Shown here one piece after another: positions 1 to 9,041 of a DNA stretch of 56,706 nucleotides (position 1 is its first letter; the number at the start of each line of letters is the position of its first letter). The notes below the pieces were generated by a model. That model was not told the DNA's origin, made no database searches, and worked only from the letters and a program-made list of their open reading frames with translations. The DNA comes from Methyloversatilis sp. (GTDB taxonomy: Bacteria; Pseudomonadota; Gammaproteobacteria; Burkholderiales; Rhodocyclaceae): positions 1 to 56,706 of the forward strand of contig JAEUNO010000044.1 of the NCBI GenBank assembly GCA_016791045.1, in the 5' to 3' direction. Both the position numbers and the translations under genes were made by a program.

Positions 1-732
1 ATAAACGTCGATGACCTTGGGATCGTTCTGCACCTTGTCCATCGATCCTTCGGCGAGGATCTTTCCCTGGTGCATGACGGTGACCTTGTGGGCGATGCGC
101 TTGACGAAATCCATGTCGTGCTCGATCACGATCACCGAGCGCCCCTTGCAGATGCGCTGCAGCAGCTCGCCGGTCAGTTCGCGCTCGCGCACGCTCATGC
201 CGGCGATCGGCTCGTCGAGCATCAGCAGTTCGGGTTCCTGCATCAGCAACATGCCGATCTCCAGCCACTGCTTCTGGCCGTGGCTGAGCAGGCCGGCTTC
301 GACGTCGAGCGAGTCGCCCAGGCTGATTTCGTCAGCCACCGACTGCACGCGCGCCTTGACTTCGTCGGTGCACCGGAAGCCCAGTGCGCCGAACACGCTG
401 CGGCCGCGCGGGAACGACACCTCGAGATTCTTGAAGACGGAGAGGTTTTCGTAGATGGACGGCGTCTGGAACTTGCGACCGATGCCGGAGCGCACGATCT
501 TGTGCTCGGCCATCTTGGTCATTTCGTGGTTCTTGAACTTGATGCTGCCGCTGCTGGCGCGCGTCTTCCCGCAGATCAGGTCGAGCAGCGTGGTCTTGCC
601 GGCACCGTTCGGGCCGATGATCACGCGCAGCTCGCCGCGATCCACGTACAGGGTCAGCGCGTCGATGGCCTTGAAACCGTCGAAGGACACGGTGAGGTCT
701 TCCACCGCAAGTACGAAGTCGGTATTGCTCAT
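1..732 (-). CDS. urtD: Urea ABC transporter ATP-binding protein UrtD (3' end beyond window)
   Basis: This is one of two ATPases that drive the UrtABCDE urea importer at the inner membrane. Translating the minus strand from ATG at 732 gives 244 codons with no stop before the window edge. Visible motifs are Walker A GPNGAGKT at about residues 40-47, the signature LSHGQ at 149-153, Walker B MLDEP at 171-175 and the H-loop EHD at 204-206. The LSHGQ signature with a LivG-like layout is typical of UrtD rather than UrtE. It lies 17 nt downstream of urtC and is transcribed with it; urtE would be expected next, outside the window. The last few residues are missing. Confidence 0.95.
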   Translation of the reverse strand, partial: MSNTDFVLAVEDLTVSFDGFKAIDALTLYVDRGELRVIIGPNGAGKTTLLDLICGKTRASSGSIKFKNHEMTKMAEHKIVRSGIGRKFQTPSIYENLSVFKNLEVSFPRGRSVFGALGFRCTDEVKARVQSVADEISLGDSLDVEAGLLSHGQKQWLEIGMLLMQEPELLMLDEPIAGMSVRERELTGELLQRICKGRSVIVIEHDMDFVKRIAHKVTVMHQGKILAEGSMDKVQNDPKVIDVY

Positions 733-3052: not shown

Positions 3053-4327
3053 TTACTGGTAACCCTTGGGGAACGGGTTCGGTTCGATCAGTTCGGGCGA
3101 CTCGGCGACCACCTTGAACTGGCCGTCGAGTTGCGCCTGGCCGATGCGCGCCTTGCTCCACAGGTGATGGTTTTCATGCACCTTCACGTAGCCTTCGGGC
3201 GCGGTCTTCAACTCGATGCCACCGGAGGCGGCGGCGATCTTGTCGACATCGAAGCTGCCCGCCTTCTCGACCGTCGCCTTCCAGATCCAGGGGCCGAGAT
3301 AACCGGCCTGCGTCACGTCGCCGATGACCGACTTCGGACCGTAGGCTTTCTTGAATGCCTCGACGAAAGCCTTGTTGTTGGCGTTGTCGAGTGACTGGAA
3401 GTACTTCATCGACGAGTAGAAGCCGGCGATGTTTTCACCGCCGATGCCCAGCACTTCGTCTTCGGTCACTGAAATGGTCAGCAGGAACTGCTTGTCCGCG
3501 GTGATGCCGGCAGCCTTCAGCTGCTTGTAGAAGGCGACGTTCGAACCGCCGACCACGGCTGCGAAGATGCAGTCCGGCTTGGCCAGCTTGATCTTGTTGA
3601 TCAGCGAGTTGAAATTGGTGTGGCCGAGCGGGTAGTACTCCTCGCCGGCGACCTTGCCCAGCTTGGCAACGGACTCGATGTGCTTGCGCGCGATCTTCAT
3701 CGAGGTGCGCGGCCAGATGTAGTCCGAACCGACCAGGAAGAAGGTCTTGGCCTTCTTCTCCTTCGCTGCCCAGTCGAGGCCGTAAAGAATCTGCTGTGTG
3801 GCTTCCTGGCCGGTGTAGATCACGTTCTTCGACTGTTCCAGACCTTCGTAGAACGTCGGGTAGTACAGCATGCCGTTCTCCTTTTCGAAGATCGGCAGCA
3901 CCGCCTTGCGCGAAGCCGAGGTCCAGCACCCGAACACGCACGCCACCTTGTCCTGCACCAGCAGCTTCTTCGACTTCTCGGCGAAGGTCGGCCAGTCGGA
4001 CGCGCCGTCTTCCTTGATCACGCGGATCTTGCGGCCGAGCACGCCGCCCATCGCGTTGATCTGGTCGATCGCCAGCTGTTCGGCCTGGATCGAACCGGTT
4101 TCGGAAATGGCCATGGTGCCGGTCGCCGAATGCAGCTGACCCACGACGACCTCGGTATCCGTCACTGCCAGCTTGGTGGTGTTCACCTTGGCCGTCGGGA
4201 ACTGCGCTGCCTGGGCCAGCGCCATGCCGGGCATCATCATCGCGGGCATCGCGGCCATGCCCATCAGCACCTTGCGGCGCTGTTCATCGGTAAGCGGCGT
4301 CTGGATCGGGTCTTTCTTGTCAGCCAT
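3053..4327 (-). CDS. urtA: Urea ABC transporter substrate-binding protein UrtA
   Basis: UrtA is the periplasmic binding protein that captures urea (or short amides) for UrtBC. It is 424 aa long, a Peripla_BP_5/FmdD-type fold with recognisable UrtA segments such as FGCWTSASRKAVLP and YPTFYEG. The N-terminal part has a hydrophobic export segment with an alanine-rich end (about residues 20-40). The frame is open to 4408, but ATG 4327 follows AGGAGAACAG and the 27 upstream residues are not protein-like. It is the first gene of the operon, divergent from the permease-kinase gene at 4694, which suggests that pair controls it. Confidence 0.96.
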   Translation of the reverse strand: MADKKDPIQTPLTDEQRRKVLMGMAAMPAMMMPGMALAQAAQFPTAKVNTTKLAVTDTEVVVGQLHSATGTMAISETGSIQAEQLAIDQINAMGGVLGRKIRVIKEDGASDWPTFAEKSKKLLVQDKVACVFGCWTSASRKAVLPIFEKENGMLYYPTFYEGLEQSKNVIYTGQEATQQILYGLDWAAKEKKAKTFFLVGSDYIWPRTSMKIARKHIESVAKLGKVAGEEYYPLGHTNFNSLINKIKLAKPDCIFAAVVGGSNVAFYKQLKAAGITADKQFLLTISVTEDEVLGIGGENIAGFYSSMKYFQSLDNANNKAFVEAFKKAYGPKSVIGDVTQAGYLGPWIWKATVEKAGSFDVDKIAAASGGIELKTAPEGYVKVHENHHLWSKARIGQAQLDGQFKVVAESPELIEPNPFPKGYQ

Positions 4328-4448
4328 AACTGTTCTCCTGAGCGGGGACGGGTTGGGGAGCTTCAGGCGATCCGGTATTGGCCGTTGATTCACTTTTGTG
4401 CGGTGCACCGCAACCGGTCGCTGCGGTCCGAAAAGTAGTTGTCGGGGG

Positions 4449-4494
4449 TGCGTAGCCGGAATACGTCAATCGACGTATGTGAGTACGCTACGCA
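4449..4494. promoter_or_regulatory. Nested palindrome, candidate operator
   Basis: The inner dyad ATACGTC-AATC-GACGTAT occupies 4461-4478 with perfect 7-bp arms. An outer perfect 8-bp pair, TGCGTAGC at 4449-4456 and GCTACGCA at 4487-4494, is almost co-centred with it. It lies 122-167 bp upstream of the urtA start and 200-245 bp upstream of the kinase start. A site for the LuxR-type regulator encoded at 8127 is the natural guess, but nothing in the sequence proves it. Confidence 0.45.
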
Positions 4495-4617
4495 ACACTC
4501 GGGATGCGGAGGGTTCGGTGCTAAGGTGAAGTCCTGCGCTGACGCACTGCACCACCAAGTGGCTCATGCACTGTTCTGGTGCGCTTTCGGCGGCGTGGAG
4601 GGAAGCTGTACCTTGTT

Positions 4618-4650
4618 CTCCGGGCAGGTGCTCACGCACCTCGCCCGGAG
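4618..4650 (+). promoter_or_regulatory. GC-rich leader hairpin before the permease-kinase gene
   Basis: Arms of 13-14 nt (CTCCGGGC-AGGTG against CACCT-CGCCCGGAG, one bulged base, 6-nt loop) are followed by CGTTTCTTG. The structure ends 43 nt before ATG 4694 and 10 nt before an in-frame ATG at 4661. Its 3' arm contains a GGAG that could serve ATG 4661. It could be a weak terminator/attenuator or a structure that masks the ribosome site. Confidence 0.4.
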
Positions 4651-4693
4651 CGTTTCTTGCATGCGTCGGGCAGTCCTCCAGCCGCCCGATCCG

Positions 4694-7600
4694 ATGTCAG
4701 AAGCCACCCAGCAGATTTTCAAGATCCGTCGCGACTACAACACCTGGGTCGCGACCGAAACGCTCGAGGACTATGCGCTGCGCTACACGCCGCGCAGCTT
4801 CCGCAAATGGTCGGAATGGCGGGTTGCCAACACCGCCTTCGGCGCCGTGTCGTTTCTCGCGCTGGAAGCCATCGGCGGCGCAATCGCGCTGAACTACGGC
4901 TTCACCAACGCGCTGTGGGCCATCCTGTTCGTCGGCCTGATCACTTTCCTGACCGGCCTGCCCATCAGCTACTGCGCCGCCAAGTACGGCGTCGACATGG
5001 ACCTGCTGACGCGCGGCGCCGGCTTCGGCTATCTGGGCTCGACGATCACCTCGCTCGTCTACGCCAGCTTCACCTTCATCTTCTTCGCCATCGAGGCGGC
5101 CATCATGGCGCTGGCGTTCGAGCTGTATTTCGGCATGCCGCTCGCGTGGGCCTACCTGCTGTGCGCGGTGGTGGTGATTCCGCTGGTGATCCACGGCGTG
5201 ACGCTGATCAGCCGCATCCAGCTGTGGACGCAGCCGGTGTGGATCGTGCTGCTGGTGCTGCCCTACATCGCCGTGTGGCTGCAGGCGCCGGAAATGTTCA
5301 GCGACTTCACCAGCATGAGCGGCCGCTCGTCGGGCAACAGCGACTTCGACTGGCTGATGTTCGGTGCCGCCTCCACCGTGGCCATTTCGCTCGTGGTGCA
5401 GATCGGCGAACAGGTCGATTACCTGCGCTTCCTGCCGGAGAAGAATCGCGAGAACCGCTACCGCTGGTGGGCGGCCGTGCTGATCGCCGGCCCGGGCTGG
5501 ATCGTGCCCGGCATGGTCAAGATGCTGGGCGGAGCCTTTCTCGCGTTTCTCGCGCTGCAGGCGATGGTGCCGGTCGACCGCGCGCTCGAGCCGACGCAGA
5601 TGTATCTGGCCGGCTACGGCTATGTGTTCGATTCTCCGGCCGTCGTGCTGGCGGTGACCGCCTTCTTCGTCATCGTGTCGCAGCTCAAGATCAATGTGAC
5701 CAACGCCTACGCCGGTTCGCTGGCCTGGTCGAATTTCTTTGCCCGGCTGACGCACAGCCACCCGGGTCGCGTCGTGTGGCTGGTGTTCAACGTGGTGATT
5801 GCGCTGCTGCTGATGCTGCTCGGCGTGTTCGAGGCGCTGGAACACGTGCTCGGCCTGTACGCCAATCTCGCCATCGCCTGGGTCGGCGCACTGGTGGCGG
5901 ATCTGGTGGTGAACAAGCCGCTCGGCCTGTCGCCGTCGCACATCGAATTCAAGCGTGCCCACCTGTACGAGATCAATCCGGTCGGGCTGGGGTCGATGGC
6001 GATCGCCACCGTCGTATCGGTGCTGGCCTACACCGGCTGGATGGGGGATGCAGCGCAGGCGTTTTCACCGGTCATTTCGCTCGCCACCGCCTTCGTCACC
6101 GCGCCGCTGATCGCCTGGGCCACGCGCGGCCGCTACTACATCGCGCGCCGCAGCACCATGCAGTGGCGTCCGGGTCAGACCGTCACCTGCCACGTCTGCG
6201 AGAACGGTTTCGAGTCGGAAGACATGGCCTATTGCCCGGCCTACGGTCAGCCGATCTGCTCGCTCTGCTGCACGCTGGAATCGCGCTGCCACGACCGCTG
6301 CAAGACCGACGCGAGCGCGGCCGACCAGCTGCATGCCGTGCTCAACGCCATCCTGCCGATGCGTCTGGCACGCCGGGTCAATTTCCGGGTCGGCCACTTC
6401 CTGGTCGTGTTCCTGTCGCTGACCTCGCTGCTGGCGGTCATTTTCGGCGTCGTGTACTACCAGGAGGCGGTGGTCGCCGATCTGTATTCGGCGGCACGCG
6501 AAACCCTGCTGCTGAGCTTGCTCAAGACCTTCGCGCTGCTGGTGCTGCTCTGCGCGGTATGTGCCTGGTGGATCGTGCTCGGCTCGGAAAGCCGGCGGCT
6601 GGCGCAGGACGAATCGAACCGGCAGAACCAGCTGCTGATGCGCGAGGTGGACGCGCACCGCAAGACCGACCTCGCCTTGCAGAAGGCGAAGGATTCAGCC
6701 GAATCGGCCAACCTCGCGAAGACGCGCTACGTGACCGGCATCAGCCACGAACTGCGCACGCCCCTGAACAGCATTCTCGGCTACGCGCAGATCCTGCTGC
6801 GCGAGCTGGGCCAGGGCTCGCTGGCACAGGGCGGCGCAGCGAAAGGTTCGCCCGCGACGGGCGCGTTGACCCAGGTCGACACCCAGCGACGCGCCCTCGG
6901 CACCATCCTGCGCAGCGGCGAACACCTGCTGGGGCTGATCGACGGCCTGCTCGACCTCGCCCGGATCGAGGCGGGCAAGTTGCGGCTCGACCCGTCGCCG
7001 ATGCCGATGCGCGAACTGCTCGACGACCTGGCGAAGATGTTCGAGCCGCAGGCGGTGCGCAAGGGCCTGCGTTTCCGCATCGAAACGACCGGCCGCATGC
7101 CCGACTACGTGCGGGTGGACGTGAAGCGGCTACGCCAGGTGCTGATCAACCTGCTGGCCAATGCGGTGAAGTTCACGTCGCGCGGCGAAGTGGTGCTGCG
7201 CATCGACTACCGCATGGAAGTCGCGCGTTTCGAAGTGGCCGACACCGGGCCGGGCATTGCGCCGGAAGACCACGCGCGCATCTTCGTGCCATTCGAACGC
7301 AGCAGTTCCGGCCGCGGTCAGGCCGAGCCCGGGGCCGGTCTCGGCCTGACCATCAGCCGCATGCTCACTTCGCTGATGGGCGGCGAACTGACGCTGGAAA
7401 GCGAACCGGGCCGAGGCAGCACGTTCCGGCTGCGCCTCTACCTGCCGGAATACCTGTCGGTGCCGACCAAGGTCAGACCGACGCGCCAGGTCATCGGTTA
7501 CGACGGCGAGCGCCGGCGCGTGCTGCTGATCGACGACGACGCGACGCAGCGCCACATGCTGGCGGCCATGCTGTTGCCGCTCGGTTTCGGCATCGACGAG

Positions 7601-8143
7601 GCGGCGAGCGGACGTGAAGGGCTCGAACGGGTCGCGCTGCAGCGCCCCGACGTGGTGCTGCTCGACATCAACATGGACGGCATGGATGGCTGGGAAACCG
7701 CGCGCCATCTGCAGCACGCTGCCGGTGCGCCGATCCCGGTCATCATGGTGTCGGCCAATGTGTTCGACAACCGCAGCGAACTGCTGCGCAACGCCGGCTG
7801 CGCCGGCTTCGTACCCAAGCCGGTCATGGAATCGGAACTGCTGGAACAATTGCGCGACGCGCTCGACCTGACCTGGCACGTCGATGAACCGGAATCCCGG
7901 AATGTTGCATCCCGCAACGACGAAGGCGATGTACCCTTGCGGGCGCTGGACGAAGAGGAACGCTCGGCGCTGCTCAGGCTGTCGCGTCTCGGCCACGTGA
8001 ACGGCATCGCGACACTGCTCGATGCCATCGCGGAACGGTCGGACGAGGCGCGCGAAGATTGCGGCCGGCTGCGCAAGCTCATCGATGGTTTTGACCTGAT
8101 CCGTTTCACCGAATTGCTGCAACGTGATGCCCATGTCCAATGA
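4694..8143 (+). CDS. NCS1 permease-type sensor hybrid histidine kinase
   Basis: This is a 1149-aa sensor with a transporter as its input domain. Residues 1 to about 490 form a many-helix nucleobase/cation symporter (NCS1, cytosine/allantoin) module. A Cys cluster (CxxC at 499/502 through Cys536) that looks zinc-binding follows, then two helices at about 565-640. The kinase core has the H-box SHELRTPLN (His685), N-box NLLANAVKF, G1 DTGPGI and G2 GAGLGLT. A receiver with Asp991 and a ~120-aa tail end the protein. No Hpt is visible. Start is uncertain: ATG 4694 is used, but ATG 4661 (11 residues longer, GGAG 10 nt upstream) is possible. Divergence from urtA suggests it senses urea or a related amide. 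The layout parallels CbrA (SLC5 transporter-kinase), but the ligand is inferred. Confidence 0.9.
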   Translation: MSEATQQIFKIRRDYNTWVATETLEDYALRYTPRSFRKWSEWRVANTAFGAVSFLALEAIGGAIALNYGFTNALWAILFVGLITFLTGLPISYCAAKYGVDMDLLTRGAGFGYLGSTITSLVYASFTFIFFAIEAAIMALAFELYFGMPLAWAYLLCAVVVIPLVIHGVTLISRIQLWTQPVWIVLLVLPYIAVWLQAPEMFSDFTSMSGRSSGNSDFDWLMFGAASTVAISLVVQIGEQVDYLRFLPEKNRENRYRWWAAVLIAGPGWIVPGMVKMLGGAFLAFLALQAMVPVDRALEPTQMYLAGYGYVFDSPAVVLAVTAFFVIVSQLKINVTNAYAGSLAWSNFFARLTHSHPGRVVWLVFNVVIALLLMLLGVFEALEHVLGLYANLAIAWVGALVADLVVNKPLGLSPSHIEFKRAHLYEINPVGLGSMAIATVVSVLAYTGWMGDAAQAFSPVISLATAFVTAPLIAWATRGRYYIARRSTMQWRPGQTVTCHVCENGFESEDMAYCPAYGQPICSLCCTLESRCHDRCKTDASAADQLHAVLNAILPMRLARRVNFRVGHFLVVFLSLTSLLAVIFGVVYYQEAVVADLYSAARETLLLSLLKTFALLVLLCAVCAWWIVLGSESRRLAQDESNRQNQLLMREVDAHRKTDLALQKAKDSAESANLAKTRYVTGISHELRTPLNSILGYAQILLRELGQGSLAQGGAAKGSPATGALTQVDTQRRALGTILRSGEHLLGLIDGLLDLARIEAGKLRLDPSPMPMRELLDDLAKMFEPQAVRKGLRFRIETTGRMPDYVRVDVKRLRQVLINLLANAVKFTSRGEVVLRIDYRMEVARFEVADTGPGIAPEDHARIFVPFERSSSGRGQAEPGAGLGLTISRMLTSLMGGELTLESEPGRGSTFRLRLYLPEYLSVPTKVRPTRQVIGYDGERRRVLLIDDDATQRHMLAAMLLPLGFGIDEAASGREGLERVALQRPDVVLLDINMDGMDGWETARHLQHAAGAPIPVIMVSANVFDNRSELLRNAGCAGFVPKPVMESELLEQLRDALDLTWHVDEPESRNVASRNDEGDVPLRALDEEERSALLRLSRLGHVNGIATLLDAIAERSDEAREDCGRLRKLIDGFDLIRFTELLQRDAHVQ

Positions 8144-9041
8144 TTCCCCATTCCATCAGCCGGTCGTGCTGGTGGTGGACGACGCGCCGGATTCGCTCGG
8201 TTTCCTGTGCGAGGCGCTGTCCCAGGCCGGCTATCTGGTGCTGATCGCCAATGACGGCGAGTCGGCGCTGGCCCGGCTCGAACTGGTCGTGCCCGACGCC
8301 ATCCTTCTGGATGCGGTCATGCCCGGCCTGTCCGGCTTCGAAACCTGCCGCCTGATCCGGGAAGAGCCCGGGCTGTCGCACGTGCCGGTCATCTTCATGA
8401 CCGGCCTGTCGGGCACGGCGGAAGTGGTCGAAGGTTTCACCGCCGGCGGCACCGACTACGTGGTCAAGCCGCTGCGCGTCGAGGAAGTGCTGGCGCGGCT
8501 GTCGGCCCATGTGCGCAATGCGCGAGCCGTGCGCATCGCGCGGCAGGCGGTGGATGTGGCCGGGCTGGGCGTGCTGGTGATCGACGCGCTCGGCCGCATC
8601 GCATGGCGCTCGCCGCGGGCCGCGGACAGCCTCGCGCAGTTCGGCATCGACGCGTCCGTTACGCCGCCTGGAGAGTCGCTGGCCCAGCTTGCGCGCATGG
8701 CGGACGAACCGGGCACCGACGCAAAGCTGATCGGCGAGAGCGGCGAGAATTCACTCTATGCGCGCAGCCTGGGCGCAGTCGGGCTGGGCGAGCACATGCT
8801 GCTGCTCGATGTGCGCCGACGCGGCGAATCGAGCACCCGCATCGCCGGTGCCCAGCTGACGCCGCGCGAGGCGGAAGTGCTGTCCTGGCTGGCCAAGGGC
8901 AAGACCAACCGCGACATCGGCGACATCCTCGGCATGAGCCCGCGCACCGTGAACAAGCACCTCGAACACGTCTACGAAAAGCTCGGCGTCGAAACGCGTG
9001 CCGCCGCTGCGGCGCTCGCGATGCGGGCGGAAAGCGACTGA
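8127..9041 (+). CDS. LuxR/NarL-type response regulator
   Basis: This is the cognate DNA-binding regulator for the kinase just upstream, whose 3' end it overlaps by 17 nt. It is 304 aa long. The N-terminal receiver has the acidic pair DD (18-19), phospho-acceptor Asp62 in LLDAVMPG and Lys in VVKPL. A middle linker of about 100 aa resembles no family I recognise. The C-terminal LuxR helix-turn-helix (about 240-300) reads LTPREAEVLSWLAKG...TVNKHLEHVYEKLGV. A GTG at 8124 and an ATG at 8133 are alternative starts. It probably regulates urt and its own operon through the upstream palindrome, which is inferred. Confidence 0.92.
   Translation: MPMSNDSPFHQPVVLVVDDAPDSLGFLCEALSQAGYLVLIANDGESALARLELVVPDAILLDAVMPGLSGFETCRLIREEPGLSHVPVIFMTGLSGTAEVVEGFTAGGTDYVVKPLRVEEVLARLSAHVRNARAVRIARQAVDVAGLGVLVIDALGRIAWRSPRAADSLAQFGIDASVTPPGESLAQLARMADEPGTDAKLIGESGENSLYARSLGAVGLGEHMLLLDVRRRGESSTRIAGAQLTPREAEVLSWLAKGKTNRDIGDILGMSPRTVNKHLEHVYEKLGVETRAAAAALAMRAESD

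Follow-up and report, generated by a model that had tools for sequence, protein, structure and literature searches.

The stretch of DNA analysed here (the window) is the 56,706-nucleotide contig JAEUNO010000044.1 of a Methyloversatilis sp. (assembly GCA_016791045.1), the whole of contig C16 in a 3.5-Mb assembly, and it encodes a hybrid histidine kinase (4694-8143, plus strand) that begins with a complete permease of the NCS1 fold. We propose, at a probability of roughly 70%, that this protein is a sensor kinase in which the permease serves as input domain: a short-chain amide (formamide or acetamide, with urea in the urease-linked relatives) would bind in the permease pocket, and the change would be transmitted through a cytoplasmic cysteine module and a hairpin of two additional transmembrane (TM) helices, TM13 and TM14, the last of which continues into the kinase. 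The kinase would phosphorylate the neighbouring LuxR-type response regulator, which in turn would bind a palindrome of the form TACGY-N6-RCGTA and switch on three targets: urtABCDE-fmdA, amiE and the operon of the kinase itself.

The architecture and the fold are solid. One open frame of 1149 residues holds all the parts that an earlier inspection of the bare letters (the sequence-only reading) had named: an NCS1-type permease domain with 12 TM helices (4748-6148, residues about 19-485), a module of eight cysteines (C499, C502, C514, C522, C525, C526, C532 and C536; 6188-6301, by alignment and model), TM13 and TM14 (6383-6592), a HisKA and HATPase_c core with the phosphoacceptor His685 (6719-7444) and a receiver domain with the phosphoacceptor Asp991 (7520-7852), all on the plus strand. 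Pfam finds HisKA, HATPase_c and Response_reg, and together with the catalytic residues these make the protein a hybrid histidine kinase. His685, Asp991 and Cys499/502/536 sit at the positions given earlier and do not vary among the 38 full-length sequences aligned, the window included. What did not hold was the start at 4661, which yields 1160 residues; the length of 1149 matches the ATG at 4694 (MSEATQQ), and the alignment of relatives likewise begins at about 4694, the later of the two starts. The two helices between the cysteines and the kinase are seen both by hydropathy (residues about 564-597 and 601-633) and in the AlphaFold model (564-595 and 599 onward), and in the full-length model (predicted local distance difference test 82, predicted template modelling score 0.60) TM14 runs unbroken into the helix that leads to the kinase (599-707). 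Among named relatives, Methyloversatilis sp. XJ19-49 is nearest, at 97% for a 621-residue query spanning the permease, the cysteine module and the first TM part.

The assignment of the sensor domain to NCS1 rather than SLC5, which the sequence-only reading had made, is supported by the fold and also by the relatives, whose sequence links to CodB are weak but real. In the structure comparison, the 12-TM LeuT-type fold of the window permease is closest to NCS1 structures, with a score of 32.5 for CodB compared with 21.5, 21.4, 20.8 and 20.6 for the SLC5-type CHT1, DUR3, SMCT1 and NIS, and the nearest solved structures are a cytosine transporter and a hydantoin transporter; with the full-length model, Foldseek placed kinases on top and CodB at rank 49. 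At the sequence level, the window permease alone had no Pfam match at E 10, and none of the PDB sequence searches, whether the query was the window permease, the family profile or a stand-alone relative, gave a match. Among 39 family members searched up to E 1, the NCBIfam cytosine permease model was matched by 18 (best 3.1e-10) and PF02133 by one (6.7e-8), and no sodium-solute-symporter model appeared among their Pfam matches, which places them outside the SLC5 domain definition. NCS1 similarity is missing from the Pfam results for the window segment itself and seen, weakly, in some of its relatives. An hhalign comparison with E. coli CodB gave E 2.9e-4 over residues 30-249, at a probability of only 40.6%. 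The window permease shares with CodB and Mhp1 the 12-TM fold and matches, in the alignment, two conserved residues of CodB, a Tyr in TM8 and an Arg in TM6, but it differs in the attached kinase and in the apparent loss of the TM6 stacking aromatic, CodB F204 aligning to V234 (alignment only) or to L233 by a gapless hand count. The substrate-sandwiching W108 of CodB aligns to F130 (alignment only), and its Na2 ligands T278/T279 correspond to K332/I333 in a gapless reading of TM8, an uncertain pairing that MAFFT places otherwise.

The gene linkage of the fusion was assessed in a phylum draw of 398 genomes, which we used for the counts because the set behind a first tally (40 of 103 loci 'other', some of them on short contigs) had mostly been chosen by similarity to the window. 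A permease profile located 57 fusion places in 52 of the 398 genomes; its other matches were one fragment and three permeases that are distant or only partly covered. Because the arrangement recurs in dozens of genomes, it is not a product of chance. Neighbours were counted within 11 kb at 55 of the 57 loci, all but those of the window and of genome G107. Urt-type, amidase or urease genes are present at 53 of the 55, most commonly urtABCDE with fmdA or amiE: 33 loci combine urtA (60% or above) with FmdA or AmiE, four an amidase with no urtA call, six urease without urtA, three urease with a urtA-like gene and seven a urtA-like gene only, and the two loci with none of these genes are both at contig ends. 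Overall, fmdA or amiE occurs at 37 loci and urease at nine, never together within that distance. A homologue of the partner regulator adjoins the fusion at 53 of the 55 loci (47 by automatic call, six by inspection). UrtA is found in 184 of the 398 genomes and in 51 of the 52 with a fusion; the one that lacks it, G574, is assembled in 290 contigs. A Fisher test on a looser set (53/54 versus 131/344) gave p 5e-19, uncorrected for relatedness.

The same linkage is seen in the window, where urtA (3053-4408; longest frame, from GTG 4408; TIGR03407 527 bits, cut-off 492.75), urtB (2017-2931; TIGR03409 over cut-off) and urtC (750-2039; TIGR03408 over cut-off) lie on the minus strand, divergent from the kinase, and are followed by a urtD-type ATPase gene (1-732, minus strand) that is cut by the contig end, its end coordinate being taken from locus L044. 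In the same genome, the first genes of contig C4 (locus L246) are one for a urt-type ATPase, which by its position would be urtE, fmdA and one for a porin-like protein, after which ureG and ureC follow on the opposite strand. L044 has the same gene order over the stretch examined, and from it we infer that the window contig joins C4, so that the urt operon beside the kinase appears to continue into fmdA. The link between the kinase and urt-type genes, as first described, thus stands, and its description as urea uptake needs care, since the operon appears to run into a formamidase gene.

The gap between urtA and the kinase carries TACGTCAATCGACGTA at 4462-4477, a palindrome (TACGTC-N4-GACGTA) that is a candidate operator of the response regulator. 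Among 147 fusions, the window itself not included, TACGY-N6-RCGTA lies upstream of 59 of the 78 that are amide/urt-linked, where shuffling gives a mean of 0.03 (30 shuffles), and of 3 of 16 urtA-like-linked, 2 of 24 unlabelled and 0 of 29 urease-linked fusions. The form TACGT-N6-ACGTA has 73 non-redundant sites in the labelled loci, and all 56 that fall between called genes adjoin urtA, the fusion, fmdA or a porin, in loci picked around the fusion and hence favouring sites near such genes; the other 17 are inside called frames, mostly overextended starts of the same genes. The window's own genome has two strict copies of the palindrome, that at 4462-4477 and one at L250:6339-6354, 63 bp upstream of amiE. 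Thirteen genomes of the genus hold 20 exact sites (13 at urtA/kinase and seven about 70 bp before amiE) and four occurrences of the reversed pattern, and two of eight further relatives have a site, in one case between urtA and the kinase and in the other ahead of a urtA-like gene. Scans of 4250-4750 for promoters and terminators found none. From the conservation of the palindrome we predict that the urt promoter is under its control, presumably through binding of the neighbouring regulator; the regulon is strongly predicted.

Several observations weigh against the proposed pathway. The motif is absent from 19 of the 78 amide/urt-linked fusions, and when the loci without the operator were scanned for palindromes, nothing common to the urease-linked fusions emerged. 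A reversed control pattern occurs once in the window's own genome compared with two strict sites, so the argument for an operator is carried by the position of the sites and not by their number. No histidine phosphotransfer domain was seen to accompany the receiver. The neighbourhood and operator sets include close relatives, which the Fisher test and the shuffles ignore, and the loci were labelled by automatic picking of open reading frames with overextended starts. When genomes of the class were drawn earlier and searched with one protein as the query, no more than 19 of 369 matched, and in three of these the match fell short of a full fusion; prevalence therefore depends on the draw and the query. 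Finally, urease genes lie close to fmdA in the window's own genome, which keeps urea in consideration as the cue.

For the window kinase, short-chain amides are the favoured ligand and urea the second choice, because the linked genes are fmdA and amiE and because published work describes amide-linked clusters of the urt type. In B. japonicum, a five-gene ABC cluster stands beside formamidase and amiE, and its cargo was judged not to be urea but possibly acetamide or formamide (PMC3098086). Growth on acetamide and formamide is reported for a strain of Pseudomonas veronii whose chromosome carries amiE, fmdA, fmdB and urtABCDE, with no amiC/amiR in the locus as described, although the strain also has a plasmid acetamidase operon; the term 'histidine kinase' is absent from the main text of that report (PMC13209695). 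That urea is the cue instead, with urt a true urea importer and the formamidase a mere passenger, is a reading we consider unlikely though not negligible. UrtA passes the urea transporter model, ureG and ureC share a contig with fmdA in this genome, and a quick tree built from 170 permeases has a 52-row clade, related to the window kinase, that is made up of 24 of the 29 urease-linked fusions with 16 unlabelled, nine urtA-like-, two urt- and one amide-linked rows; on the other hand, amidase genes far exceed urease genes in the drawn loci (37 and nine of 55, never both within 11 kb), the second operator copy is at amiE, and the B. japonicum study argues for another amide as cargo. In that tree, the amide-, urt- and urease-linked labels are clustered, every one of 500 shuffles giving more changes, a result that close relatedness also produces. 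Three genomes (G596, G728 and G575) each hold one amide-linked and one urease-linked copy. Between amide/urt-linked and urease-linked fusions, three residues likely to line the pocket differ (A56 to I/V, I237 to M and G398 to M), and these are candidate specificity residues.

The sequence-only reading suggested that the permease may be a transceptor for urea or a urea precursor such as allantoin or hydantoin, and only the urea part survives, in second place. Allantoin, hydantoin or a nucleobase as the cue is very improbable: the nearest solved structures transport cytosine and hydantoin, but the linked genes encode formamidase, aliphatic amidase and urease, the predicted regulon of the genus adds amiE, and the TM6 stacking aromatic appears to be missing. 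The window's own genome has no PF02133 match at E 0.001, and no allantoin or hydantoin gene was recognised by eye in the 22 commonest unlabelled neighbour clusters, for which no model search for allantoinase or hydantoinase was made.

The eight cysteines between the permease and TM13 are invariant in the 38 full-length sequences; in a wider set of 96 fusions, gathered in part by patterns that span the cysteine stretch itself, seven are present in all and the eighth (C536) in at least 97%. The model shows short strands and a helix here. The module has no significant Pfam or PDB match, and the separate family search proposed for this segment returned values short of significance, for PF14446 (as a test for a prokaryotic RING or treble clef; E 0.088 in two of 15 members and 0.18 in one) and for a zinc-ribbon model (E 0.082 in one of 15, the best). 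Because one clade of stand-alone permeases retains C499, C502, C522 and C525 without the other four, the pattern suggests two metal sites, probably for zinc, rather than a redox switch. A switch that responds to redox or metal level, in place of a structural zinc fold, would fit eight conserved cysteines that include a CC pair, but the four-cysteine clade has the very pattern expected upon loss of one of two metal sites, and we find such a switch improbable. A profile of the module with the TM hairpin recovered 57 places in the 398 genomes besides two weak or partial matches, from a scan that scored at most nine candidates per genome and may thus miss the module on other proteins. One of these two is a kinase without permease. 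L157:6857-8713 (plus strand) encodes a 618-residue kinase with a partial cysteine motif and no permease, adjoining a regulator of the same family, and seems to be a receptor that has lost its sensor.

Fused and stand-alone permeases have a common cysteine tail, at 43-56% identity to the window permease. At four loci, each in a different genome (L026, L240, L241 and L242), a free permease with an eight-cysteine tail is divergent from the fusion and followed by fmdA together with fmdB and/or amiE, occupying the slot that urtABCDE fills elsewhere. In seven genomes (L039, L234-L239) a four-cysteine permease directly follows ureG, at L237 (8250-9953, minus strand) with a nickel transporter gene (NicO) next, and this NCS1-like protein is a candidate for an unrecognised urea permease. 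Fused and free forms differ consistently at positions 54, 57, 135, 172 and 340, in a comparison that set 103 of 157 fused rows, leaving aside those that were unlabelled or urtA-like and eight more, against ten of 11 stand-alone permeases from few lineages (L239, an incomplete frame, left out). In TM1, F54/L57/E58 of the fused forms stand against Y54, D57 and Q or F58 of the free ones, E58 being invariant in the 38 full-length fused sequences. We considered the loss of an acid in TM1 (L57 versus D57) as a loss of coupling and dropped it, since the fused forms carry E58. It is possible, if tentative, that the permease reads transport flux or the intracellular nitrogen state and not one ligand, and is still a working symporter, a transceptor of the kind reported for CbrA, whose SLC5 domain is reported to mediate histidine uptake (PMC13022988). 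In favour, the permease core is highly conserved and the two forms differ consistently at few sites; against it, the changes in TM1, TM3 (135) and TM8 (340) may mean altered coupling.

The input unit also occurs on other outputs. At L033:7849-11520 (minus strand) the NCS1 permease, cysteine module and two TM helices are fused to PAS-GGDEF-EAL, so that the same input may set cyclic-di-GMP levels, and that genome also has the unit on a PAS-containing hybrid kinase with a receiver and two PAS regions (L038). At L161, L099, L024 and L111 it is joined to histidine kinases without receiver; L099:9986-12952 and L111:5047-7911 are cyanobacterial (Phormidium and Leptolyngbyaceae), and L111 adjoins urt-like genes and amiE. 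We give about even odds to a broader view, in which permease, eight-cysteine module and TM hairpin form a portable amide/urea input module, derived from a new NCS1 subfamily of cysteine-tailed amide/urea permeases and grafted in evolution onto kinases both hybrid and simple and onto a GGDEF-EAL protein; sensor would have split from transporter through a small number of fixed changes in TM1, TM3 and TM8, and two paralogous sensors would divide amides and urea between them.

Two further features of the locus complete the description. The partner regulator (8133-9041, plus strand), with a receiver and a LuxR-type helix-turn-helix domain by Pfam, has a start that overlaps the kinase stop. After the kinase's own receiver, the full-length model shows a C-terminal four-helix domain (7952-8137, plus strand), conserved in part across the family; on the stretch 7871-8143 at this end, the best Pfam match is only E 0.17.

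Transporter folds are known as inputs of other kinases. CbrA and CrbS have an SLC5 input with a STAC linker (PMC13022988; PMC5715377), and they share with the window system a transporter fold on a histidine kinase (a hybrid in CrbS) and a cognate regulator, which in CrbR is of the LuxR type and needs an inverted repeat (PMC5715377). They differ in having SLC5 in place of NCS1 and a STAC four-helix bundle in place of the eight-cysteine module and two TM helices (a comparison made without a STAC-model search), in the acetate-linked genes of CrbS/R as opposed to amide and urea genes, and in the printed ACTU motif sites, which by eye differ from the window palindrome. The ammonium sensor kinase of the anammox organism Kuenenia, an Amt domain with a histidine kinase (PMC5764959), likewise uses the fold of a nitrogen-compound transporter as sensor, but of another family and with no cysteine module mentioned in its description. 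Very likely members of the present family are VIMSS583663 of Dechloromonas aromatica, a histidine kinase of 1131 residues (PMC2907700, Table 4), by gene order and length, and a histidine kinase beside urtABCDE operon III of E. guguanensis (PMC13296017, text and Fig. 6 legend), by gene order; these entries record a histidine kinase or hybrid sensor, without mention of a permease domain. Multi-term queries of the open-licence literature, with subscription journals mostly outside, found no paper on NCS1-histidine kinase fusions. The NCS1 sensor with its cysteine module is a different family built on the same principle as the SLC5 and Amt sensor kinases.

The change from transporter to receptor is hard to study, since a sensor seldom has a close relative that is a transporter. 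In this family, fused sensors and stand-alone permeases, at 43-56% identity to the window permease, have the same kinds of neighbours and few consistent differences, and the candidate operator offers a read-out for the study of the sensor. The fusion family is widespread, and in many bacteria it could be the regulator so far missing for the use of formamide, acetamide and perhaps urea.
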